A stretch of 51,599 nt of DNA from Phycisphaerales bacterium (GTDB taxonomy: Bacteria; Planctomycetota; Phycisphaerae; Phycisphaerales; UBA1924), in NCBI GenBank assembly GCA_022843565.1, contig JALHNK010000005.1, forward strand, positions 1 through 51,599, in the 5' to 3' direction. Numbering within the stretch: position 1 is the stretch's first letter; every line of letters starts with the position of its first letter. The notes beneath the pieces were generated by a model. It made no database searches, was not told the DNA's origin, and worked only from the letters and a program-made list of their open reading frames with translations. A program made the position numbers and the translations under genes. Shown here one piece after another: positions 6,635 to 17,359 of this stretch.

Positions 6635-7669
6635 ATGACACAGGCACACGCACCGCTCGGTACTTCGGTCATTACCGCTCGATGCTCGTCGGGGCCTCGC
6701 GCCCGGCTGCGCGGCTTTACGCTGATCGAGTTGCTCGTGGTGATCGCGATCATCGCGCTGCTGGTCGGGATTCTGGTGCCGAGCTTGGCGGGGGCGCGGG
6801 ATGCGGCACGCCAAAGCAAGTGCGGCTCGGCGCTGAGGCAGCTTTCGATTGCGGCGGGAACGCACGCCGCGGATCGCAAGGGATTGTTCAGCACCGGTGC
6901 CGCGGACAACCGTCGCGAATACGGCAACGGCGCGTTCGATGAGAAGGGCTGGATCGCGGACTATGTGAACGGCGGCTATTGCAAGCCGGGCGGGCTGCTG
7001 TGCCCGTCGAGCCCGTCGCAGGCGAGCCAGAACCTGAACATCGGGCGCATTAACGACAACGGCTACAAGTCGTTCACGCCGACGGACATCGATCGGCTGA
7101 TCGACGAGGGGTACAACTCGAACTACAACCAGAGTTGGTACATGGCGCACACGGACACCAAGACGCGCTCGCCGGTGGCACCCGGGCCGGTGAACCCGTC
7201 GGACGTGAAGCTGCACCGGTTCAATGTCGGGCCGATGAAGGACTCGAGCATCCGCAACACGACGCCGTCAAAGGTGCCGCTGTTCGGCGATGGCACGTCG
7301 CTGGTGTTGCAAGATACTGTGACGTACAAGGGCCAGATCATCACCGGCGCCAAGGCGCTGAGCGACGGGCCCGAGCGCGGGGCCCTGGGCAGCGGGATCG
7401 TGTGGGGCCGGCAGAACTACACCGACTTCGGCCCCGCCCACGGCAAGGGCTCGGTCATCACCGTCGAGAACGCCAACCACCAGTCGAACGTCGGCCAGAT
7501 GGGCTTCAGCGACGGGCATGTCGAGGTCTTCTTCGATACGCAGCGCGACGGCCAGTTCGGCGGCACCACCGGCACCCGCAACGGCTACACCGGCCAGCTT
7601 GCGGAGTATCACGAGCTGGAGAACAAGGTCTTCGGCGGGTGGCTGCTGCGGGCCGGGTTGAACTACTAA
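6635..7669 (+). CDS. Type II/IV pseudopilin-like protein, prepilin N-terminus, H-X-DG C-terminus
   Basis: A 344-residue protein with a type IV prepilin leader: a 26-residue basic stretch, then the processing and helix motif [22 protein letters not shown] (peptidase cleavage after the Gly, methylated Phe at +1). The long C-terminal domain is the planctomycete kind, ending with [19 protein letters not shown], close to the H-X9-DG signature found at the end of many planctomycete prepilin-like proteins. Four cysteines are scattered in the first half. GGAG lies 5 nt before the ATG. It would be inserted in the inner membrane and assembled into a type II secretion pseudopilus or related fibre. No pilus machinery is adjacent; pilM begins at 51224. 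Confidence 0.88.
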
Positions 7670-7697
7670 GTCGCGAGTGCTGAGTGCTGAGCGTGCC
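7670..7697 (+). repeat. Heptanucleotide tandem repeat directly after a stop codon
   Basis: Four 7-nt units in register: GTCGCGA, GTGCTGA, GTGCTGA, GCGTGCC. The first unit starts at the base after the TAA stop of the pseudopilin gene. Same repeat class as at 7779-7834, 10140-10228, 21578-21612 and 40422-40543. Confidence 0.75.
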
Positions 7698-7775
7698 ACC
7701 GACCTCGTTTTGAGGTCGGTGCTCGTGACCATACGTTGCCCACGGGCACCGACCTGAAGACAGGTCGGTGGCACG
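7696..7775. repeat. Composite double-hairpin element, copy A
   Basis: Two perfect 10-bp hairpins with related arms. Hairpin 1 has CACCGACCTC (7697-7706) and GAGGTCGGTG (7712-7721). Hairpin 2 has CACCGACCTG (7747-7756) and CAGGTCGGTG (7761-7770), followed by GCACG. The same pair in the same order occurs at 15850-15930. Both copies lie between convergent genes, with hairpin 2 ending 6-9 nt from the stop codon of the minus-strand gene. A bidirectional terminator or 3'-end stabiliser is the simplest role; there is no long U tract. Confidence 0.8.
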
Positions 7776-7776
7776 G

Positions 7777-8175
7777 TTACTCGCGACTCGCGTCTTGCGA
7801 CTCGCGACTCGCATCTTGCGACTCGCGACTTTCCAATCGATCAAGGCTGCGGCTGAGCACCACCATCAGCACGCCCGCCAGCGGCACGATGTACCACATT
7901 GTCGCCGGCACCGCCAGGAGCGTGTGGCTCGGCAGCGCCCAGGCGATGACGTGGTAGCCCGTACACATGAGCGAAAAGCTCAGCGCGGCGTAGGACGCGA
8001 AGCTCCACGCGTCGCGACGGACGCGGGGCGCTGCGCGCTCGGCGTCAAGCTCGATCTGTGCCGCTTGCCAACGGTCCATCGTCACGCGGCGGCGTGCGCG
8101 AATGAGGATGATGATGCCCAGCACGATGAGGCCGACACCCGGCGCGATCATGAGCCATGAGGACAGTGTGGGCAC
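7777..8175 (-). CDS. Small membrane protein of unknown function
   Basis: A 132-residue protein with three likely membrane helices, near residues 7-27, 60-80 and 86-107, and a basic loop RARRRVTMDRW after the first. The GTG at 8175 is chosen because GGAGG lies 6 nt upstream. It follows amrB on the same strand after 72 bp and may be cotranscribed. The last 18 residues (LESRESQDASRESQDASRE) are translated from a heptanucleotide repeat and read as a 7-residue period, so the original C-terminus was probably shorter. I do not recognise the family. Confidence 0.7.
   Translation of the reverse strand: MPTLSSWLMIAPGVGLIVLGIIILIRARRRVTMDRWQAAQIELDAERAAPRVRRDAWSFASYAALSFSLMCTGYHVIAWALPSHTLLAVPATMWYIVPLAGVLMVVLSRSLDRLESRESQDASRESQDASRE
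7779..7834. repeat. Heptanucleotide tandem repeat inside the end of a coding region
   Basis: Seven clean 7-nt units (ACTCGCG, ACTCGCG, TCTTGCG, ACTCGCG, ACTCGCA, TCTTGCG, ACTCGCG) and a decayed eighth. There is a 21-nt higher-order unit. The array forms the 3' end of the minus-strand membrane protein gene and supplies its last codons; the stop TAA is at its edge. Confidence 0.85.
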
Positions 8176-8247
8176 AAGACCTCCGCGGAGCGCGGTCGAG
8201 CGACAGGGAACGTGGGGCGAATCGGCACAACGGCCCGCGAGGGCGGA

Positions 8248-9645
8248 TCAGGTCATGACCATGGCGGCGCTGGTCACCATGCCGAGGCCCTGCGGGTCCA
8301 TCACGGGGCCGTAGCGGAGCATGCGGACATCGGCCGGCTGCGCGACCATGAGCGTGGCGACAAGGTTGCCGACGCTGCACCAGCGCGTGGGGTTCTGTTG
8401 CCAGGCCATGCTGGCGACGAGTTCGGATGGCTTGTTGGCGACGACGAGACCGAGCATCTCGTCATCCATGCCGAAGACGCGGTTACGGGCTTGCTCTGCG
8501 TTCTGCGCCTCCTCGGTGCCCTCCTCCGCTGCCAGGGCGACCTCATCGCCGAAGGCCCGCCCGACGTGCGAGAGGTCTGCGGAGCTGACGATGAGCGTCC
8601 GGCCCGGGAGCTTGGCGAGCTGGGCCTTGAGCGCGTCGACGAAGGGCTGGAGGGCGACGCCCTGGCCGTCGTAGCTCTCGCCGTTCTTGACGACCGGGTC
8701 GTGGATGAGCGCGCCGAAGACCTTGGGGTACTGGCCGCTGGAGTCCTTGCCGAAGACGTGCTGGATCCAGGTGACTTGCAGCTCGATGGAGTGCTCGCGC
8801 TCGTGATCGAAGCGGTTGGCGAAGATGGCATCGCCGAGGGTTGAGCGCAGGCCGCTGGCCAGCGCCGCGTCGATCTCGCACGCGCCGAGCACGGTGCTGA
8901 AGCCCTTGTCGCACGCCGCGATGCCGGTGGAGACGCCGAAGTGATTGGTGCCCAGGATGATGACGCGATCGGGACGATCGGCGACGCGGAGGCGACCGTA
9001 GACCGCGGCGTAGTTGAGCCCGCCGCGCTGATAATCCAGGTGCGGCGCGACGATGGCCTTGGGCAGTGCGGTGAAGGCGGGATCGGGGACGTCGCTGAGG
9101 GCTTCGGCGATGAGCGAATCGAAGTACGTGCGGACGCGCCGCGCGGCGTATTCCGAGCGGGCCGGCTCTTCTGCGGGCGCTTCGGTGTCTTCGCTCAGCA
9201 TCGCGTCCACGAACGCGGCGGTCGTTCCCGGCGGCAGGATCGGCTGGCTGTCGAACTCGGCGCGCATCTTGGTCAGCAGCTCGTCGAAGGCGGGGCCTTC
9301 AAGGAGGGCGGCACCGTCAAGCTGCGTGATGAGCTGCTCCATGACCGGGCGGGTGAGCCCGCGGCCGACTTCCATCACGATCTGGTCGATCGAGCGGGAG
9401 CCATCCATCAGCGGCAGCACAAGGCTGACGCCGGGCATGACGACGGCGACACGATCGGAGATTTGGCGGGCATCGGCGAGGCCGAGCATCTGGTGCTCGG
9501 TGCCGTCGGGTGCTTTGGCCTGCACGGGGAAGCCGCGGATGGCGCGGATCTTGGGGCGGGTGTGATGGGGGAGGTTGTTGTTGAACGCGGGGCCTTGGCT
9601 GGCGGGCTGAGCGTTCGGATCTTGTGAGGAATCTGGCGTGGTCAT
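8248..9645 (-). CDS. amrB: MEMO family protein (AmmeMemoRadiSam system protein B) with extra N-terminal domain
   Basis: A 465-residue protein. Residues about 195-465 form a MEMO domain, related to extradiol dioxygenases, with the expected ligand set: His in VAPHLDY (about 202), His in LGTNHFG (about 235), the EREHSIELQ stretch, His in SSADLSHVG, and Cys in NPTRWCS. Residues about 35-150 are a second domain predicted as small winged-helix/PqqD-like (LMDGSRSIDQIVMEVGRG), not part of ordinary MEMO proteins. In other bacteria AmrB is found with AMMECR1 (AmrA) and a radical SAM enzyme; neither is here. No Shine-Dalgarno sequence is visible, and TACACT lies 9 nt before the ATG. The biochemical role is unknown. 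Confidence 0.85.
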   Translation of the reverse strand: MTTPDSSQDPNAQPASQGPAFNNNLPHHTRPKIRAIRGFPVQAKAPDGTEHQMLGLADARQISDRVAVVMPGVSLVLPLMDGSRSIDQIVMEVGRGLTRPVMEQLITQLDGAALLEGPAFDELLTKMRAEFDSQPILPPGTTAAFVDAMLSEDTEAPAEEPARSEYAARRVRTYFDSLIAEALSDVPDPAFTALPKAIVAPHLDYQRGGLNYAAVYGRLRVADRPDRVIILGTNHFGVSTGIAACDKGFSTVLGACEIDAALASGLRSTLGDAIFANRFDHEREHSIELQVTWIQHVFGKDSSGQYPKVFGALIHDPVVKNGESYDGQGVALQPFVDALKAQLAKLPGRTLIVSSADLSHVGRAFGDEVALAAEEGTEEAQNAEQARNRVFGMDDEMLGLVVANKPSELVASMAWQQNPTRWCSVGNLVATLMVAQPADVRMLRYGPVMDPQGLGMVTSAAMVMT

Positions 9646-9654
9646 AGGGAGGAG

Positions 9655-9660
9655 AGTGTA
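9655..9660 (-). promoter_or_regulatory. Candidate -10 element (TACACT) for amrB, near-leaderless
   Basis: TACACT on the minus strand ends 9 nt before the ATG at 9645, and no ribosome-binding site lies between. Transcription would begin about 2-3 nt before the start codon. Confidence 0.35.
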
Positions 9661-9805
9661 TGGTGTGAGGAGGAAGATCGCTTGCGATGGGTGAAGGAAA
9701 AGATGACCTGTGGGGTTGGGTTGCGTAGTATCTGGGCCCGTCTCGGCGCGGTCCGGTTGGCCGCGCGTCGTGGGGATGTCTCACTTTGATTCGCACGAGG
9801 TTCCC

Positions 9806-10123
9806 ATGTTCGATACGCTCAAAGCCGGCCAGATGATCACGATCACGCTCAAGAGCGCGCCGCGCGCCGCGGGCAACAAGGCGACGTTGCAGCGCCTGAT
9901 GCGGCTTGATCCGACGAACAAGAAGGCCTTGGGTCGTGCGTATCGCGTGCGCGAGTCGCGCATGACCACCTACAACCGCGGCAACCGCGACTGGGTCAAG
10001 CGTGAGTCGTGCGCCCGCATCGTGACGGTGGGCAAGGGCGAGTCGTTCAGCCTGCGCTACACGCCGATGCTGCTTGCGGACCTCAAGTCCGTCGAGAAGT
10101 ACCTGACCGTCGCGAAGGCGTGA
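9806..10123 (+). CDS. Small basic protein of unknown function
   Basis: A 105-residue, strongly basic protein (many Arg and Lys, such as RAYRVRESRMTTYNRGNRDWVKRE) without signal peptide or membrane helix. GAGG lies 5 nt before the ATG at 9806; an in-frame start at 9710 has no ribosome site. The composition suggests nucleic-acid binding, but that is inference only and I do not recognise the family. It is divergent from amrB (160 bp apart), and a repeat array follows 16 nt after its stop. Confidence 0.75.
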   Translation: MFDTLKAGQMITITLKSAPRAAGNKATLQRLMRLDPTNKKALGRAYRVRESRMTTYNRGNRDWVKRESCARIVTVGKGESFSLRYTPMLLADLKSVEKYLTVAKA

Positions 10124-10139
10124 GTGCCGACGGGGCGGC

Positions 10140-10228
10140 GCTGAAAGCTCAACGCAGCAACGCAGCAACGCAGCAACGCAGCAAAGCTCAAAGCTCAAAG
10201 CTCAAAGCTCAAAGCTCAAAGCAGCAAG
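10140..10228 (+). repeat. Mixed 7/8-nt tandem repeat array
   Basis: In order: GCTGAAA, GCTCAAC, GCAGCAAC three times, GCAGCAAA, GCTCAAA five times, GCAGCAAG. It fills most of the gap between two plus-strand genes, starting 16 nt after a stop codon. The same words (GCTCAAA, GCAGCAAA) recur in the array near 40466-40495. Confidence 0.9.
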
Positions 10229-10282
10229 TCGAATTGCTGCGTCTGTTGAAGCGCGCGTAGAGTGGGGTTTCGGGGAGCGTGC

Positions 10283-10774
10283 ATGGCTATCAGTGTTGGT
10301 TGTTTACGGCGTGGGCCTGTGCGGTCTTGGCGTGGCTGCGGAGTGTGGGCGGCCGTGTGCGTGGCGTTGGGCGGTGCGTTGATGGTGAGCGGCTGCGAGC
10401 GTCCGCCCGCGGCGGGCACGGTGCGGGTGAGTGATCTGACGCCGCCGACATCGCCGCCGAGCGCGACGTATGTCGTGCGGGGCGAGGTGGTGTCGCTGCC
10501 GATCACGGGCAAGCCGCAGACGGAACTGATCGTCAAGCACGAGGCGATCGACGACTTCAAGGACCGCGACGGGAAGGTCGTCGGGATGAACGCGATGGAG
10601 ATGGAGTTCCCGCCCGCGAAGGGCGTTGACGTTCGAGATCTGAAGGTCGGCGAGAAAGTGGCGGTGACGTTCAGCGTGTGGTGGACGCAGACGCCGCCTT
10701 GGCTGGCGACGAAGATCGAGCGGCTGCCGCCGGAGACGCAGTTGGAGTTTCGGAAGAAGCGGAAGCTGCCGTAG
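10283..10774 (+). CDS. CusF-like copper-binding lipoprotein
   Basis: A 163-residue lipoprotein. The N-terminal hydrophobic stretch ends in the lipobox VSGC, so the mature protein is lipid-anchored in the periplasm. The C-terminal half has the CusF_Ec fold pattern: VVSLPITGKPQTELIVKHEAI, then MNAMEMEF, then VGEKVAVTFSV. The Met pair of MEM and the preceding His fit Cu(I)/Ag(I) ligands of CusF; the Trp of E. coli CusF is replaced by Met here. It is probably a metal-binding chaperone or a regulator of a heavy-metal efflux or electron-transfer system, though no efflux gene is adjacent. The ATG at 10283 has GGGGAG 5 nt upstream; a GTG at 10262 is less likely. Confidence 0.8.
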   Translation: MAISVGCLRRGPVRSWRGCGVWAAVCVALGGALMVSGCERPPAAGTVRVSDLTPPTSPPSATYVVRGEVVSLPITGKPQTELIVKHEAIDDFKDRDGKVVGMNAMEMEFPPAKGVDVRDLKVGEKVAVTFSVWWTQTPPWLATKIERLPPETQLEFRKKRKLP

Positions 10775-10874
10775 TTTGGATTCTGGCTGACGAGCGCGAT
10801 TGCGTGGATCGACGTGCCGAATGGCGGCGCAGTCCAATCGCCAGTTCAACGCCATCGGCGAATCGGACGTCTTG

Positions 10875-10930
10875 CCCCCTCCGCCGCGAAGCGCGGCACC
10901 TCACCCGGTAGGAACCGGGGGAGGGTGGGG
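10875..10930. repeat. Paired stem-loops in a C-rich/G-rich element
   Basis: A C-rich start (CCCCCTCC), the hairpin CCGCG-AAG-CGCGG (10884-10896), the hairpin CCCGGT-AGGA-ACCGGG (10904-10919) and a G-rich end. The layout resembles short palindromic interspersed elements of GC-rich bacteria and lies between convergent genes, so it may end transcription from both sides. Only one copy is visible in this window. Confidence 0.5.
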
Positions 10931-10963
10931 AGTGCTGCTGCGATTGGGCTCGCGGCTCGGCGA

Positions 10964-11446
10964 TTACTTCACGCGGCGGTATTCAGCGCGCATGAACTCG
11001 TGGAACTGGCCGTCGGGCGTCTTCGTGCCGGAGGTGAGCAGACGCTTGTCGGGAGTGATGAGTTCGACGGAGTCGCGGTAGACGGTCATCGTGCCGTCGC
11101 CGGCCATGCTGGGGCCGTTGGTGTAGAGGTCGAGGCGGTTGTCGTTGTTGGGGCGGTCGCCCTCGTAGACGAACATGTAGGCCATGGGCGAGCCGACCCA
11201 GGTGCCGCGGTACTTCTTGGTGGCGGGGTCGAAGCCGACGGTCATGATGGCGGTCATGTCGCCGCCGCCGGGCATGGTGCCGGTGGACTCGCCAACGACC
11301 CAGAGATCGCCGAGCATGCGGACGGTTTCGGTGCCGCCGGATTTCATCGGCGGCTGGTTGGGACCCATGTTGCAGGTGCTCTCAAACGTCCAGGTGCCGA
11401 CGAAGTTCTTGAGCCAAGCGTGCTCGGCGGTGGGGGGCGTAAACAT
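10964..11446 (-). CDS. DUF1579 family protein
   Basis: A 160-residue protein matching the DUF1579 pattern: HAWLKNFVGTWTFEST near the start, a central block with IMTVGFDPATKKYRGTWVGS, and a C-terminal YRDSVELITPDKRLLTSGTKTPDG. The family is a small beta-barrel of unknown biochemical role, very common in planctomycetes. The ATG at 11446 is preferred over an upstream ATG because AGGAG is 7 nt before it. It has no signal peptide, so it is probably cytoplasmic. It lies 117 bp downstream of nfo on the same strand. Confidence 0.85.
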   Translation of the reverse strand: MFTPPTAEHAWLKNFVGTWTFESTCNMGPNQPPMKSGGTETVRMLGDLWVVGESTGTMPGGGDMTAIMTVGFDPATKKYRGTWVGSPMAYMFVYEGDRPNNDNRLDLYTNGPSMAGDGTMTVYRDSVELITPDKRLLTSGTKTPDGQFHEFMRAEYRRVK

Positions 11447-11563
11447 CGTGAGTCTCCTGCGGGCGGGGAGGTCGGGGGTTGGGTGCGGCAACTCGAAGCG
11501 GCCGCGGAGAACGCACGCGATGGGTCGAATGTTCGGCGTTCAGATCGCTCGCGTCAAGCGAAG

Positions 11564-12562
11564 TCAGGAGACGGGCACCTTCTTGGGGTTGCGCGACTGC
11601 GACTTGGCGGTCTGAGGCGTGGCCAGCGGCGTGATGGTCACGGGCTCGCCGCGGGAGGAGGCGCGAAGGCGAGCGACGTTGACGGTGTCGCAGTCGACTC
11701 CCCCGGGGCCTTCGCCCTTGGGCGTTTCCATGATCTTCGGCACGCTCCGCAGTTGCGGCGAGGTCACCCACGGCCCGAAGCCCTGCATGCCAATCGTCCC
11801 CTCGCCGATGTGCGCGTGCCGATCGAGGCGTGAGCCGACGGGGCCTTTGGAGTCGTTGACGTGGAGGCAGCGAACGTTGACAAGGCCGAGGGTGTTCTCG
11901 GCGTGTTCGAGGGTGCGCGTGGCGGATTCGACGGTGGAGAGGTCGTATCCGCCGGCGTGCATGTGGCAGGTGTCGAGGCAGAAGCCGACGCGTTCGTTTC
12001 CGCCGCGGGCCAGGGCGATGATCTGCTCGCGCATGCGGGCGAGTTGTTCGAACTCGCGGCCGATGGTGGAGCCGGCGCCGACGACGTTTTCGAGGCAGAG
12101 CACGGTGCGGTGGCCGGCGGTCTGGGCCAGGAGCTCGGCGCAGGCGTAGACGATGCGGCGCTCGCCGGCGATGGGGTCAGAGTCGGTGGCGGAGCCGGGG
12201 TGGAAGACCAGCAACGGGATGCCGAGCTGATGGCAGCGGTTGAGCTCGACGACCATCATGGCGATCGAGCGATTGCGGAGGGTGTCGTCGGGCGATGCGA
12301 GGTTGGCGAGGTACGACGCGTGCGAGACGACGCGTGCGGGGGCCTCATCGCGCCGGGCCGCGGCGTTTCCGGGCTTGTCCATGGCCCAGCCCATCTCGAC
12401 CAGGGCGCGGCGCCACGCCGCGATTTCTTCGTCCTTGAGATCGGGCGCTGCCCACTGCTGCTGGTTCTTGGTGAAGACCTGGACGCAATCGAGGCCAAGA
12501 TCGCGCGCAGCGACGAGCGCGTTGACCATGCCGCCGGCGATTGAGAGGTGGCTTCCAAACAT
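11564..12562 (-). CDS. nfo: Deoxyribonuclease IV (AP endonuclease)
   Basis: Zinc-dependent endonuclease IV of base-excision repair, cutting 5' to abasic sites. The 332-residue product begins MFGSHLSIAGG, as family members do, and keeps the metal-ligand blocks HASYL, LVFHPGS, CLENVVGAG, GFCLDTCHMHAGG, LHVNDSKG and DRHAHIGEG. It is about 45 residues longer than usual because of a basic C-terminal extension after GPWVTSPQL. I chose the ATG at 12562; another at 12574 adds only four residues. The 12562 start is supported by TATGCT 7 nt upstream and the absence of a ribosome site. It is divergent from the SDR gene with 55 bp between them. Confidence 0.93.
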   Translation of the reverse strand: MFGSHLSIAGGMVNALVAARDLGLDCVQVFTKNQQQWAAPDLKDEEIAAWRRALVEMGWAMDKPGNAAARRDEAPARVVSHASYLANLASPDDTLRNRSIAMMVVELNRCHQLGIPLLVFHPGSATDSDPIAGERRIVYACAELLAQTAGHRTVLCLENVVGAGSTIGREFEQLARMREQIIALARGGNERVGFCLDTCHMHAGGYDLSTVESATRTLEHAENTLGLVNVRCLHVNDSKGPVGSRLDRHAHIGEGTIGMQGFGPWVTSPQLRSVPKIMETPKGEGPGGVDCDTVNVARLRASSRGEPVTITPLATPQTAKSQSRNPKKVPVS

Positions 12563-12569
12563 CGGCAGC

Positions 12570-12575
12570 AGCATA
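12570..12575 (-). promoter_or_regulatory. Candidate -10 element (TATGCT) for leaderless nfo
   Basis: TATGCT on the minus strand ends 7 nt before the ATG at 12562. The matching SDR element at 12606-12611 points the other way, so two promoters are packed back to back. Confidence 0.42.
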
Positions 12576-12605
12576 GCGGGCGGCGGCAAGGGCGTGGAGC
12601 GTCAC

Positions 12606-12611
12606 TACGAT
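12606..12611 (+). promoter_or_regulatory. Candidate -10 element (TACGAT) for the leaderless SDR gene
   Basis: TACGAT ends exactly 6 nt before the ATG at 12618, with no ribosome-binding site. This is the spacing at which transcription would begin on the A of the start codon. Confidence 0.42.
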
Positions 12612-12617
12612 CTCGGC

Positions 12618-13442
12618 ATGACAACCCCGAAGATCACAGCGGTATCTGGTTCCCACGTCGGTCGGGTGGCGATTGTGACGGGGGCGTCGGCGGGAATCGG
12701 TGAGGCGACGGCGGCGCTGCTGCACCGGCGCGGCGCGAGCGTGGTGATCAACGCGCGCCGAGCGGAGAGGCTGAAGGAGGTCGCTGCGGAGATCGGTGCC
12801 CAGGGCGGGGCCGAGCGCGTGCGTGTGGTGGCGGGCGACTGCGCCGAGCAAGCGGTGATCGACGCGATGCTCGACGAGGCCAGACGGGCGTTTGGCGCCG
12901 AGGCGGATCTGGTGGTGGTGAACGCGGGGCGCGGGCTGAACGGCAGCGTGATGAGCAGCGACGAGGCGCAGTGGGAGGAGGTGGTGCGGACGAACGTGCT
13001 CGGCGCGGCGCGGCTGATCCGCGGCGCGGGCAAGCGGATGCTCGATCGCGTGCCGCCGGAGCAGTGTGGCCAGAGTGGGACGTGGCTGAAAGCGGCGCGG
13101 GACGTGGTGGTTCTGGGCTCGGTGGTTGGGCGGCACGTGTCGCCGTTTTCGAGTTTGTATGGATCGACGAAGTTCGCGGTCCACGCCATGACCGAGGGCG
13201 TGCGGCGCGAGCTGGCCCCGCGCGGCGTGCGCGTGACGCTTATCGAGCCGGGCTTTGTGGTCAGTGAGTTCCAGCGCGTCGCGGGCTATGCCGATGCGTG
13301 GTTCGAGAGCATGAAGGAGAAGTTCGCCCCGATGCTGGAGCCGGCGGACGTGGCGCGAATGATCGAGTTTGTGACAGCGCAGCCGGCGCACGTGCATGTC
13401 AGCGATCTGCTGGTGCGGCCGACGCGGCAGGAGTATCCGTGA
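12618..13442 (+). CDS. Short-chain dehydrogenase/reductase
   Basis: A 274-residue classical SDR. The Rossmann motif TGASAGIG follows the first strand (near residue 22), NAG is near 104, the catalytic Ser lies in VVLGSVVGR and the catalytic pair is Y-x-x-x-K in YGSTK. The NARR after the second strand suggests NADPH preference. The substrate cannot be told. The ATG at 12618 is the natural start; the frame extends further upstream only as antisense to nfo. It has no neighbour in an obvious pathway. Confidence 0.9.
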   Translation: MTTPKITAVSGSHVGRVAIVTGASAGIGEATAALLHRRGASVVINARRAERLKEVAAEIGAQGGAERVRVVAGDCAEQAVIDAMLDEARRAFGAEADLVVVNAGRGLNGSVMSSDEAQWEEVVRTNVLGAARLIRGAGKRMLDRVPPEQCGQSGTWLKAARDVVVLGSVVGRHVSPFSSLYGSTKFAVHAMTEGVRRELAPRGVRVTLIEPGFVVSEFQRVAGYADAWFESMKEKFAPMLEPADVARMIEFVTAQPAHVHVSDLLVRPTRQEYP

Positions 13443-13525
13443 GCAGGTGGCACGCGGACCAGTTATGACGTCTCAGGAGCCACATCGGGGCGGGAAGTCG
13501 GTGCCAAAGACGCTCGGGAATGATG

Positions 13526-13531
13526 TATACT
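13526..13531 (+). promoter_or_regulatory. Candidate -10 element (TATACT) for leaderless mntA
   Basis: TATACT ends 6 nt before the ATG at 13538, the best -10 match in the neighbourhood. It overlaps an in-frame ATG pair at 13520 and 13523, which argues that translation starts at 13538. Confidence 0.45.
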
Positions 13532-13537
13532 TCTCGC

Positions 13538-13840
13538 ATGGAAATCCACGGCGTCGTGTTTCCCGAGGACCAGATCGCGGCGTTCTGTCAGCGGCATCGC
13601 GTTCGCTCGCTCCGTGTCTTTGGTAGCATTCTGCGGCCTGATTTCAGCGATGCCAGCGATGTAGACCTGTTGGTCGAGTTCGAGCCGGGGCACACGCCGG
13701 GGATGGTTGGCTTCGGCGAGATGATTCTCGAGCTTCGCGAGATGCTGCGGCGCGATGTTGATCTGCGAACGGCCGAAGACCTCTCGCGGCACTTCCTGCC
13801 GGCGGTGCTCAGAGTGGCGAGAACGCTCCATGCCGCGTGA
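13538..13840 (+). CDS. mntA: MntA-like nucleotidyltransferase antitoxin
   Basis: A 100-residue minimal nucleotidyltransferase. It carries the exact GS-x10-DxD signature (GSILRP...SDVDLLVEF) of MntA antitoxins, with a further acidic position at RRDVDLR. In characterised pairs MntA transfers AMP to a tyrosine of its HEPN partner and so silences it. The next gene, overlapping by 11 nt, is that HEPN partner, so the module is complete. The start at 13538 is preferred because a -10-like TATACT lies just upstream; starting at 13520 would add six residues. Confidence 0.9.
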   Translation: MEIHGVVFPEDQIAAFCQRHRVRSLRVFGSILRPDFSDASDVDLLVEFEPGHTPGMVGFGEMILELREMLRRDVDLRTAEDLSRHFLPAVLRVARTLHAA

Positions 13841-14201
13841 GAAGTTTGGCGGCGAATTTGACGACCGGATTCGCCTTGAGCACATGCTCGAAGCGGCGCG
13901 GGACGCCCGGCGTTTCATGCAGGGTCGTTCGCGGCCGGACCTCGACGCGGACGCGATGCTGTTGCGAGCAGTCACGAACGCGATTCAAGAGATCGGGGAA
14001 GCGGCAGCGCGGATTAGCGAATCGGGTCGAGCCCGCGCTCCCGGTGTTCCTTGGAAGCAGATCGTGGCAATGCGCAACGTCTTGGTACACGTGTATTGGG
14101 GCGTTGATCGCGACAGGCTTTGGGCCACCGCACGAGACGACTTGCCGGCGTTGATTGCGGATCTTGAAGCCGCGGTTCTGGATTGGCCGCTGCCCCCCTG
14201 A
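13830..14201 (+). CDS. hepT: HepT-like HEPN toxin RNase
   Basis: A 123-residue all-helical HEPN protein. RNVLVHVYW gives the exact RX4HXY motif (Arg, His, and the Tyr that MntA modifies), and IQEIGEAAARIS is the usual preceding helix. In studied pairs it is an RNA-cleaving toxin neutralised by AMP addition. It starts inside the end of mntA (11-nt overlap), so the two are translationally coupled, antitoxin first. The N-terminus is unusually basic (MPREKFGG). It is free-standing, with no recombinase or repeats at its borders. Confidence 0.92.
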   Translation: MPREKFGGEFDDRIRLEHMLEAARDARRFMQGRSRPDLDADAMLLRAVTNAIQEIGEAAARISESGRARAPGVPWKQIVAMRNVLVHVYWGVDRDRLWATARDDLPALIADLEAAVLDWPLPP

Positions 14202-14382
14202 GCGGATTCGTGTGGCGTCCGACTCCCCACCCCTCGCCCGCCGCCATGCCAGCCTGCTCCCTGCCGGGCTCGTGTCTCCACGCGCCGTCGGCGAAATCGC
14301 CTTCCGCCGGTGCTATCCTCGCCGACTTCTGGCGGGCGGCGGATCACCTGATCCGGCGAACCATGCCAAACAGGAGCCTTTC

Positions 14383-15807
14383 ATGCTCGGCAAAGTCTTC
14401 AAGGCCTACGACGTTCGCAGCACGTACCCGGATCCGCTGAATGAGGCGATGGCGCGTCAGATCGGGTTTGGTTGCTCGCGGTTTTTGCTCCAGGACGCCG
14501 CGGGGGCCGGTGAGGGCTCGCCGATGATGCGGAATGTGGTGGTGGGGCGCGACATGCGGAAGAGCTCGCCGAGCCTGACCGAGGCGCTGATCCGTGGGAT
14601 CACCGATCAGGGCGGGCACGTGCTGGATGTGGGGATGGTGGACACCCCGTTTGTCTACTTCGCGGTCAACCACTTTGATTGCGCCGGCGGGGTGATGTGT
14701 ACCGCGAGCCATAACCCGCCGCAGTACAACGGGTTTAAGGTGAGCAAGCGCAAGGCCAAGCCCGTCGGCGAGAGCACCGGGCTGGGCGACGTTCGCAAGT
14801 TCGCGGCGACGGTGGACTTCGTGAACAACTTTCAGACCGCCGGCGGGCGCGTTGAGAAGCGCGAGCTGTGGGACGCGTACAAGGCGCACGTGCTGAGCTT
14901 CCTGGATCTGTCGGCCCGCAAGGGAAAGAAGCCGCTCAAGTGCGTGATTGACGCGAGCAACGGCATGGCCGGCACGATGGTGCCCAAGGTCTTCGGCAAC
15001 AAGAAGCACGCGGTCGATGGGCTTGAGATCATCGAGATCAACTTTGACAACTCCAAGGGCGAGTTCGTTCACGAGCCGAACCCGCTGGTGGCCAGCAACG
15101 TGAAGCAGACGTGCGACGCGGTGGTGGCGCAGAAGGCGGATGTCGGCTTCTGCTACGACGGCGACGCGGACCGTTGCGTGGTGGTTGACGAGAAGGGCCA
15201 CATCATCGGCTGCGACCATCTCACCGGCGCGCTGTGCCGGCATTTCCTTGAGCAGCAGCCGGGCAGCGCCGTGGTCTATGACCTTCGGAGCACCAAGGCG
15301 GTTCAGGAAGAGATCACGAAGCTCGGGGGCAAGCCGGTGCGCAGCCGCGTGGGCCATGTGTTCATGAAGGCGGCGCTGGCGGAGCACAAGGGGAGCTTCG
15401 GCGGCGAGCTTTCGGGGCACTTCTACTTTGCGAAGAACTTCAACGCCGACAGCGGCGCGATCGCGATGGCGGTGGTATTGACGGTGCTGGCTCGAACGGG
15501 CAAGAAGATGAGCGAGCTGGTGGCGCCGATGCAGAAGTACTACCAGTCGGGCGAGATCAACTTCCAGATCGAGGACAAGGACGCCGCGATCGCGAATCTG
15601 AAGGACGAGTTCGCGGGTCAGGGCACGATGGACGAACTCGACGGCGTGACGATCGACTGCTTCACGAAGAACGGCTGGTGGTGCAACGTGCGCAAGAGCA
15701 ACACCGAGCCGCTGCTGCGGCTGAACCTTGAGGCCAAGGACAAGAAGACGCTGGACGCGATGATGGCCAAGATCGCGCCGATGCTGGGGCACAAGGTCGA
15801 TCACTGA
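14383..15807 (+). CDS. Phosphomannomutase/phosphoglucomutase
   Basis: A 474-residue alpha-D-phosphohexomutase that moves phosphate between C6 and C1 of a hexose, supplying mannose-1-P or glucose-1-P for surface sugars. Motifs in order: phosphoserine loop CTASHNPPQYNGFK (Ser 109), metal loop CYDGDADRC (Asp 259, 261, 263), sugar loop GGELSGHFYF (near 347) and phosphate-binding KSNTEPLLRL near the end. AGGAG is 6 nt before the ATG at 14383; the frame is open to 14155 but without a start signal. The CDS ends 12 nt before a set of three hairpins. Whether it prefers mannose or glucose cannot be read from the sequence. Confidence 0.93.
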   Translation: MLGKVFKAYDVRSTYPDPLNEAMARQIGFGCSRFLLQDAAGAGEGSPMMRNVVVGRDMRKSSPSLTEALIRGITDQGGHVLDVGMVDTPFVYFAVNHFDCAGGVMCTASHNPPQYNGFKVSKRKAKPVGESTGLGDVRKFAATVDFVNNFQTAGGRVEKRELWDAYKAHVLSFLDLSARKGKKPLKCVIDASNGMAGTMVPKVFGNKKHAVDGLEIIEINFDNSKGEFVHEPNPLVASNVKQTCDAVVAQKADVGFCYDGDADRCVVVDEKGHIIGCDHLTGALCRHFLEQQPGSAVVYDLRSTKAVQEEITKLGGKPVRSRVGHVFMKAALAEHKGSFGGELSGHFYFAKNFNADSGAIAMAVVLTVLARTGKKMSELVAPMQKYYQSGEINFQIEDKDAAIANLKDEFAGQGTMDELDGVTIDCFTKNGWWCNVRKSNTEPLLRLNLEAKDKKTLDAMMAKIAPMLGHKVDH

Positions 15808-15819
15808 GTCTCTGGGTGG

Positions 15820-15838
15820 CCCGCCACTCCGTGGCGGG
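15820..15838. terminator. Hairpin after the hexomutase gene
   Basis: A perfect 8-bp stem, CCCGCCAC and GTGGCGGG, with a TCC loop 13 nt after the hexomutase stop. No U tract follows. It is the first of three hairpins in this convergent gap. Confidence 0.55.
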
Positions 15839-15849
15839 TCTGCCTTGTT

Positions 15850-15930
15850 CCACCGACCTCGTCGCGAGGTCGGTGTCTCGCGATCTGCAATCGTCCAAGT
15901 GCGTCGACCTGAGGACAGGTCGGTGGCACG
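15850..15930. repeat. Composite double-hairpin element, copy B
   Basis: Hairpin 1 has CACCGACCTC (15851-15860) and GAGGTCGGTG (15866-15875), extendable to 11 bp. Hairpin 2 has CGTCGACCTG (15902-15911) and CAGGTCGGTG (15916-15925), with two positions that would be G-U pairs in RNA. CAGGTCGGTGGCACG is identical to copy A at 7696-7775; the stretch between the two hairpins differs. It lies between convergent genes, 9 nt from the stop of the phosphatase gene. Confidence 0.8.
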
Positions 15931-15934
15931 TTCA

Positions 15935-17359
15935 TCACATCGCGCTTGATCCGGTGATCACGATCATCGTGCGGTCGTCCGCGGGCGGCTGGCCGCTCGA
16001 GAACGTGTCCAGCTCGCTGAGCACGGTCTGGAGCAGGCCTTGCGCGCCGGAGTGGCGACGGGCCAGGATCTCGTCGAGACGGTCGGTTCCGAACATCTCT
16101 CTGGACTTTGGTGTGACGGCGGACGCCGGGCTCGCGCTGGCGTCGGGGGCGAAGGTCTCGGTCACGCCGTCGGTGTAGAGCACCAGGGCGTCGCCGGGAT
16201 CGATTCGGATCTCGGAGGACTCGTACTCAGCATCATCGATGACGCCCAGCGGCAGGCCGCGGGCACCGTCGATGCTCAGCACCGGCCCGTGGTCACCCAC
16301 GAACCCGACGCGCAGGCGGGGCGGGTTGTGACCGGCGCTGCAGTACGTCATCATTCGAGACTTGGGGTCGTAGACCGCGTAGAACGCAGTGACAAACATC
16401 GAGCCCGAGCCAGATGAGAGCGTGTAGCGCCGGCTGAGTTCCTGGTTGAGCGACGTCACGAACTTCGCCGGATCGTGCCGGTCGGTCGGGGTCACGTGGG
16501 CGATCGCGTGCATGATCGCCATGAGGACCGCGGCGGGCGTGCCGTGGCCCGAGACGTCGGCGATCAACATGCCGACGCGACCGCCTTCGAGGTCGAAGAA
16601 GTCGTAGTAATCGCCGCCGGCGTTCTTGCTGGTCTGGTAGTGGGCGGCGAAGTCGAGGCCCGGAAGCGAGGGGAGTGCGGTGGGCAGGAGCGAGCGCTGG
16701 ATCTCGGCGACGGTGCGCATCTCGCGGTCGAGCGCCTCGTTGCTCTCGGCCAGTTTCTGCGACAGCACGAGCGAACTGGTCGCACGTCCGAACATGCTGC
16801 TGAGCCACACGGCCTCGGGCACGCGATCGTGGACAAAGCCGTTGCGCCGCTTGATGAGCGAGCAGACCATGTTGATGACCTGGCCGTTCTCGTAGTGGGG
16901 GATCGCCAGAAGCGAGCCCATTCCGGCGAGATACGGAGCGCTGGGGTCATCGGCGTCAACAGTCAGATCGTTGATGAGCACCGGCTTGCCCTCATAGAGC
17001 AGGCGCCCGAGCAGCCCGCGATCGAGCACCGGGAGTTTGTGGGGCTCCTTCCAAGGGTCCGGCTGCTCTTTCCAGGTGCTGGAGCGGGTGATACGAAACT
17101 TCGGCGAGGGCATGTTCCGGCGGGACATGGACACGACCCCGTCGTTGCCAAAGAGCTTGCGGACGCGCTGGCCGTAGGCGGCGACCATTTTTTGCGGGTC
17201 CGAGTGCATGGACATTTCGCGCATGAGCTCGTCAACCTCGCCGAGGCGCTCGTGCCAAGTGCCGCCCATTGCGCCGGTGGCGCCGGCCGGAGTGGGGGGC
17301 GCGGGGGTGTCGTTGGATGAAGCGGGGCCGGGAACAGAGCCAGCGTTGTCATCAGCCAT
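15935..17359 (-). CDS. GAF - SpoIIE-type serine/threonine phosphatase
   Basis: A 474-residue cytoplasmic PPM-family phosphatase of the RsbU kind. After a disordered Pro/Ala-rich start, residues about 40-195 form a GAF-like sensor. A short coiled coil (LAESNEALDREMRTVAEIQRSLLP, 203-226) links it to the SpoIIE domain (233-474), which has the metal-binding motifs AGGDYYDFF, IADVSGHGTPAAV, YCSAGHNPPRL and LVLYTDGVTET. Such proteins usually dephosphorylate an anti-anti-sigma factor in a partner-switching cascade; no anti-sigma kinase or STAS protein is adjacent. TACGCT lies 5 nt before the ATG and there is no ribosome site. Confidence 0.9.
   Translation of the reverse strand: MADDNAGSVPGPASSNDTPAPPTPAGATGAMGGTWHERLGEVDELMREMSMHSDPQKMVAAYGQRVRKLFGNDGVVSMSRRNMPSPKFRITRSSTWKEQPDPWKEPHKLPVLDRGLLGRLLYEGKPVLINDLTVDADDPSAPYLAGMGSLLAIPHYENGQVINMVCSLIKRRNGFVHDRVPEAVWLSSMFGRATSSLVLSQKLAESNEALDREMRTVAEIQRSLLPTALPSLPGLDFAAHYQTSKNAGGDYYDFFDLEGGRVGMLIADVSGHGTPAAVLMAIMHAIAHVTPTDRHDPAKFVTSLNQELSRRYTLSSGSGSMFVTAFYAVYDPKSRMMTYCSAGHNPPRLRVGFVGDHGPVLSIDGARGLPLGVIDDAEYESSEIRIDPGDALVLYTDGVTETFAPDASASPASAVTPKSREMFGTDRLDEILARRHSGAQGLLQTVLSELDTFSSGQPPADDRTMIVITGSSAM

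Follow-up and report, generated by a model that had tools for sequence, protein, structure and literature searches.

Inverted doublets of a CGTGC-tagged REP-like unit in convergent gene gaps of a Phycisphaerales bacterium, probably spread by a RAYT transposase

The double-hairpin repeat that occurs twice (copies A and B) in the window, i.e. the whole stretch of 51,599 nucleotides that was analysed, is read here with high confidence as a pair of REPINs: non-autonomous inverted doublets of a CGTGC-tagged REP unit, a perfect palindrome of 9-10 bp with a short loop, moved by a RAYT. The repeat is thus probably spread by a special transposase. What was observed directly is the unit architecture, the copy number, the covariation, the patchy distribution and, in relatives, the physical linkage between RAYT genes and units with the same tag. 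An earlier note on this DNA had described a double hairpin present twice in the same order, with a shared 15-mer and in convergent gaps behind minus-strand stops, and all of this was confirmed; our boundaries, 7692-7775 for copy A and 15846-15930 for copy B, are slightly wider than those given there.

In both copies a single asymmetric unit, CGTGC + CACCGACCT-loop-AGGTCGGTG, occurs twice in inverted orientation, with the unpaired CGTGC tag facing outward. The unit can also be written as the tag plus a CACCGACC hairpin, and within each copy the two outer ends are inverted relative to one another (5'-CGTGCCACCGACCT ... AGGTCGGTGGCACG-3'). The features of the two loci are as follows.

6635 to 7669, plus strand: gene upstream of copy A, with an N-terminal methylation motif (prepilin-like)
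7692 to 7727, plus strand: REP unit A-left; tag CGTGC at 7692-7696, stem 7697-7705/7713-7721, loop CGTTTTG
7722 to 7746, no strand: variable spacer of REPIN A; its ends CTCGTG and CCACGGG pair in the fold
7741 to 7775, minus strand: REP unit A-right; arms 7747-7755/7762-7770, minus-strand tag CGTGC at 7771-7775
7777 to 8175, minus strand: convergent open reading frame of copy A, 132 aa, without a family
14155 to 15807, plus strand: gene upstream of copy B, a phosphoglucomutase/phosphomannomutase
15846 to 15881, plus strand: REP unit B-left; degraded tag TGTTC, stem 15851-15859/15867-15875
15876 to 15901, no strand: variable spacer of REPIN B
15896 to 15930, minus strand: REP unit B-right; arms 15902-15910/15917-15925, minus-strand tag at 15926-15930
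15935 to 17359, minus strand: convergent gene of copy B, a SpoIIE-type phosphatase

The left-unit loops are closed by a C-G pair (CGTTTTG in A, where this pair lengthens the stem, and CGTCGCG in B) and the right-unit loops are GTCTTC and GTCCTC, which makes A and B hetero-doublets. In copy B the left tag has mostly been lost (TGTTC) and the inner arm of the right unit carries two transitions, at 15903 and 15904. The 15-mer CAGGTCGGTGGCACG ends both copies on the right side; a lone shared 15-mer is unremarkable in 51.6 kb of GC-rich DNA. The arm CACCGACCT with at most one mismatch was found 41 times in the window against 15.6 expected, and no shuffle equalled that number. With the covariance model the four units scored 49.7 bits (A-left, E 1e-12), 58.6 bits (A-right, E 2e-15), 36.3 bits (B-left, E 1.3e-8) and 49.7 bits (B-right, E 1.1e-12), E-values that are partly due to construction since the model was built including these units; with the filters off, the next-best matches in the window had E-values of 0.001 or worse. 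An Rfam scan of the window gave no matches at the gathering thresholds. As single-stranded DNA, copy A is predicted to fold into one long hairpin rather than two (-39.2 kcal/mol, z -8.9), and copy B into two separate hairpins (-26.7 kcal/mol, z -5.4).

The gene stops that border the gaps lie at 7669 and 7777 for copy A and at 15807 and 15935 for copy B, and the distance from the minus-strand tag to the stop codon of the minus-strand gene is 1 nt and 4 nt, respectively. A clean empty site was found for neither A nor B, and synteny with the congener is broken at B. The surroundings hold other repeats as well. Copy A is flanked by heptamer tandem repeats, GAGTGCT and ACTCGCG (7675-7691 and 7779-7830), and the last codons of the 132-aa minus-strand frame traverse the ACTCGCG array, which codes for its end. 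A GTGCTGA array is also present behind the orthologous mutase gene in the congener G001. Just ahead of copy B, at 15813-15838, there is a CCCGCCACTCCGTGGCGGG hairpin that resembles another planctomycete REP, TGGGTAGCCCGGCACTCCGTGCCGGGC, which flanks a RAYT in locus L126; the exact CCCGCCACTCCGTGGCGGG core was in no other fetched locus except those spanning the same site.

The host genome, G000, is an assembly of 3.54 Mb in 237 contigs with 88.9% completeness. A strict pattern had 17 sites in it and the reversed-pattern control had none. Two covariance models were used. In the first, R1, the 3' arm was mis-registered by 3 columns, so R1 searches count as sequence-profile searches only and their E-values are not structure-based. 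The structure-correct model R2 found 43 units (E up to 0.001), compared with 3 weak ones in the sole congener; R1 had given the same total of 43 at a looser threshold, and the four window units were likewise recovered. CGTGC is conserved at one foot, unpaired, in nearly all units. Ten of the 41 units examined pair up as five inverted doublets with a short spacer and the tags outside (copies A and B plus three others); the remainder are single. By placement, convergent gaps hold 10 of the 41, tandem gaps 18 and divergent gaps 5; predicted genes contain 4, and another 4 are close to contig ends. The units therefore have what defines a REP, a palindrome of 20-65 nt in many, mostly extragenic copies with a tagged foot, and the doublets have the architecture of a REPIN. 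The REP-like unit occurs either alone or paired in inverted orientation, and is not the fixed composite element that the earlier note proposed. In support of that note, many further copies with covarying stems and a preference for gene 3' ends were found, but most of these are single and non-convergent.

For the covariation analysis, units were gathered by their 5' half alone, blind to the 3' arm, which gave 127 distinct units from seven genomes. Pair 9-26, the fourth of the stem, is T-A in 75, C-G in 30 and G-C in 10 of them, and pair 14-21, the ninth, is C-G in 60, T-A in 41 and G-C in 18; stem changes are compensatory both between and within genomes. Overall 96.7% of the cells were paired, compared with 91.7% after shuffling the 3' halves within genomes (maximum of 500 shuffles 93.2%), which indicates that the palindrome is maintained. 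Such conservation does not separate RNA from folded DNA, and it is expected if a RAYT reads folded single-stranded DNA. The G-U pairs in copy B had been taken as a hint of selection for RNA structure, an argument that we reject. Seven of the nine positions of the CACCGACCT arm are C or A, so most transitions there yield G-T or G-U automatically, and there is no excess of G-T on the tag strand: 6 G-T were counted against 21 A-C (which are G-T on the other strand), a count that is biased by the 5'-arm collection and so stands as a mere lack of support.

The link to transposases comes from relatives, whose Y1 transposase genes were retrieved and their flanks inspected. In five genomes a RAYT is bracketed by CGTGCCACCGA-headed units with the tags outward: L131 (G064), L270 (G081), L272 (G126), L248/L331 (G025) and L266 (G091), the last with doublet arrays on both sides; L332 is a further RAYT locus flanked by CGTGCCACCGA-headed units. 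The tag is constant among these loci and the stems past CACCGA vary by locus (CCTCGG, CCGCGG, CCGCG, AGTCCG). The RAYT genes have about 205-226 codons. All five proteins tested scored above the cut-off of the NCBIfam model REP_Tyr_transpos (NF047646), with 80.9-95.8 bits against 80. These proteins keep the HUH motif (HVH) and the Y of YIHRNP, with H-x-H and Y invariant, and the best match of the clade profile among PDB structures is TnpAREP 4er8. When 151 genomes of the order were searched for the clade, more RAYT loci were obtained. An outward GTGCC-tagged hairpin lies within 350 nt at 17 of the 27 full-length related RAYT loci and is missing at the other 10; the clade loci L283 and L284 have no flanking tagged hairpin. 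Outward GTGCC was found in 37 of 88 hairpins near RAYTs, compared with 3 of 40 far away. Many RAYT-flanking hairpins carry GGTGCC on unrelated stems (GGTGCCACACAGCAGC, GGTGCCGTGGCAAGC, GGTGCCCCGGGGCATC), which indicates that the (C/G)GTGCC tag marks the RAYT clade and not one family.

No cognate RAYT was found in the G000 assembly, whose 89% completeness means that absence is not proven, and the L131 protein as query had no match there. The only RAYT match of this genome is embedded in an Hsp70 gene and accompanied by another REP (L018:259-2958, minus strand, on contig C73, where the locus spans 8401-11592). This RAYT, with 75.9 bits to NF047646, is just below the cut-off; it is in frame within an HscA/DnaK-type Hsp70 open reading frame of 899 aa, whose halves match Hsp70 at about residues 12-323 and 573-860, and the REP doublets on either side of it, GGGGCAGGCGTCCCGCCTGCC, are translated into peptide within the frame. 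Similar long open frames surround Y1 matches in other genomes.

The strict pattern was absent from 60 relatives, but several metagenome assemblies of Phycisphaerales contained it (JAFIFZ, SLFH, REET and others). Outside Planctomycetes, one exact match was noted in Lysobacter ruishenii (L074), probably by chance or transfer. With the R1 profile (E up to 1e-4), units were found in 28 of the 100 same-family genomes searched, with 41 in G002, 33 in G069, 40 in G076, 27 in G083 and none in the congener G001; this patchy distribution is the usual REP picture. Doublets predominate in G083, G123 and G061-063 and are common in G069. The units of G002 (L172-L191) have a T- and C-rich tail, CTCTTCTTCT, which is terminator-like and differs from the other genomes examined. 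Among three congeners at 92-95% identity, most of the compared doublets sit at the same orthologous positions, and movement is therefore rare or slow. A 70-nt presence/absence difference with one unit was seen among congeners (L060 against L047), and one of the three carries an orthologous REPIN in the opposite orientation at the same place (L043, reverse strand, 950-1048, compared with L033:2779-2877 and L045:585-683).

Published REP tags are GT[AG]G, CGTC and CnGA (PMC3733652, PMC6006769, PMC8266576). A GTGCC-tagged family was not described in the papers that were searched. GTGCC is a new tag variant; REPINs and RAYTs themselves are already known, including from Planctomycetes, where the GTAG and CGTC superfamilies have also been reported (PMC3733652). 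Like these superfamilies and the REPtrons (PMC3733652), the present repeats are short tagged palindromes that form head-to-head dimers, and the RAYT is flanked by units as in the GTAG but not the CGTC superfamily. The tag sets them apart: (C/G)GTGCC here, in contrast to GT[AG]G in the GTAG superfamily, and CGTG with an associated RAYT in contrast to the CGTC superfamily, whose CGTC tag has no transposase association. TnpA-Y1 class 3 (PMC6006769) likewise has planctomycete Y1 proteins flanked by tagged hairpins, but differs in the foot, CnGA, and in the Y motif, YV[VI]xEQ (Y----Q), compared with GTGCC and YIHRNP here. The REPINs of Pseudomonas fluorescens SBW25 (PMC3116915) are similar in being inverted REP doublets with conserved ends, a variable spacer and compensatory changes, and they also fold as one long hairpin or as a two-hairpin 'clover'. 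They differ in tag and stem; a cognate RAYT with adjacent clusters is present in SBW25 and was not found in G000, where singlets dominate. The E. coli BIME/REP system with TnpAREP (PMC8266576) probably shares recognition of a single-stranded DNA hairpin plus tag, and the RAYT clade aligns with TnpAREP 4er8, but the E. coli REP depends on GTAG and on a bulge, and the units here are perfect palindromes.

The proposed mechanism is drawn from established RAYT biochemistry (PMC8266576, PMC3116915). When the DNA is single-stranded the unit would fold into a hairpin, as in REP/RAYT systems; an HUH/Y1 RAYT would bind hairpin and tag, cut beside the hairpin and relocate the doublet; and insertions would survive chiefly where they do little harm, in convergent gaps and just behind stop codons. 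For this particular family, RAYT spread is what we infer, and the cleavage site, presumably a GC dinucleotide, is a guess from the published pairing model (PMC8266576).

Any effect on neighbouring mRNAs is putative. Simple decay of REPINs does not fit well with the host genome, where the majority of copies stand alone with no obvious trace of a partner and with a strong orientation bias. Every one of the 14 singles located between genes on the same strand in G000 is sense, its tag pointing to the upstream stop codon (two-sided p 1.2e-4), and 12 of the 14 lie within 46 nt of that stop, a clustering that differs from a scatter along the gap (KS p 5e-7; p 0.002 when the 150 nt before the next start are left out). 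In G002, 10 of 11 comparable copies are sense, counted by eye and leaving out four copies where the gene model fails; the gene calls behind the orientation counts were made with a simple codon model. Stability of the hairpin alone cannot account for the orientation, because its structure is almost symmetric. Either the insertion itself has a direction, e.g. by targeting the strand that transcription displaces, or copies are retained for an effect at the mRNA 3' end. A rather unlikely rival goes further and takes the units as putative RNA elements of mRNA 3' ends, exonuclease stabilisers or ribosome-slowing stop-proximal hairpins, that are selected for expression, with mobility secondary or past. 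The sense singles of both genomes fit it, as do the tandem-gap singles behind rpsI, urocanase and others, the convergent-gap copies behind rplS and transaldolase, and the nearness of A and B to a stop; a passage of PMC12306157, citing earlier work, describes REPs of E. coli located no more than 15 nt from a stop as stalling ribosomes or slowing translation. However, doublet-rich genomes show mixed orientation, the linkage to RAYTs and the patchiness of the copy number among species are in keeping with a mobile repeat, and an insertion bias may be the source of the orientation. The sense-only, stop-proximal singles, which transposition alone does not explain, nevertheless hint at a further, secondary function at the 3' ends of mRNAs.

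That the units are intrinsic transcription terminators for convergent genes is very improbable: they are GC-rich hairpins directly after stops and the G002 tail is T-rich (45% T over 12 nt), but the G000 tail is T-poor (18% T), a terminator scan calls neither A nor B, and the unit in L010 is followed by another GC-rich hairpin. For G000 we reject this explanation on the T-poor tail and the terminator scan. Scarcely credible is the original proposal, made from the two copies with their common order and convergent position, of an RNA element that is a fixed composite of two hairpins and confined to convergent gaps; the genome-wide survey, in which single, non-convergent copies prevail, contradicts it, and so does the orthologous doublet inverted in one congener. 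The reading of A and B as RAYT-moved REPINs is the one we retain. A broader proposal, offered as a tentative possibility, is that GTGCC repeats with their own RAYT clade may be a third transposase-linked REP superfamily across Phycisphaerales, and that the G000 and G002 singles may have been recruited as sense 3'-end elements that outlive the transposase.

RAYTs have been studied almost solely with GTAG-type REPs. The GTGCC clade, with a constant tag and changing stems, is a natural experiment on how RAYTs recognize tag versus palindrome and choose the cleavage site, and the sense-only, stop-proximal singles make the recruitment of a mobile repeat to mRNA 3' ends directly testable.
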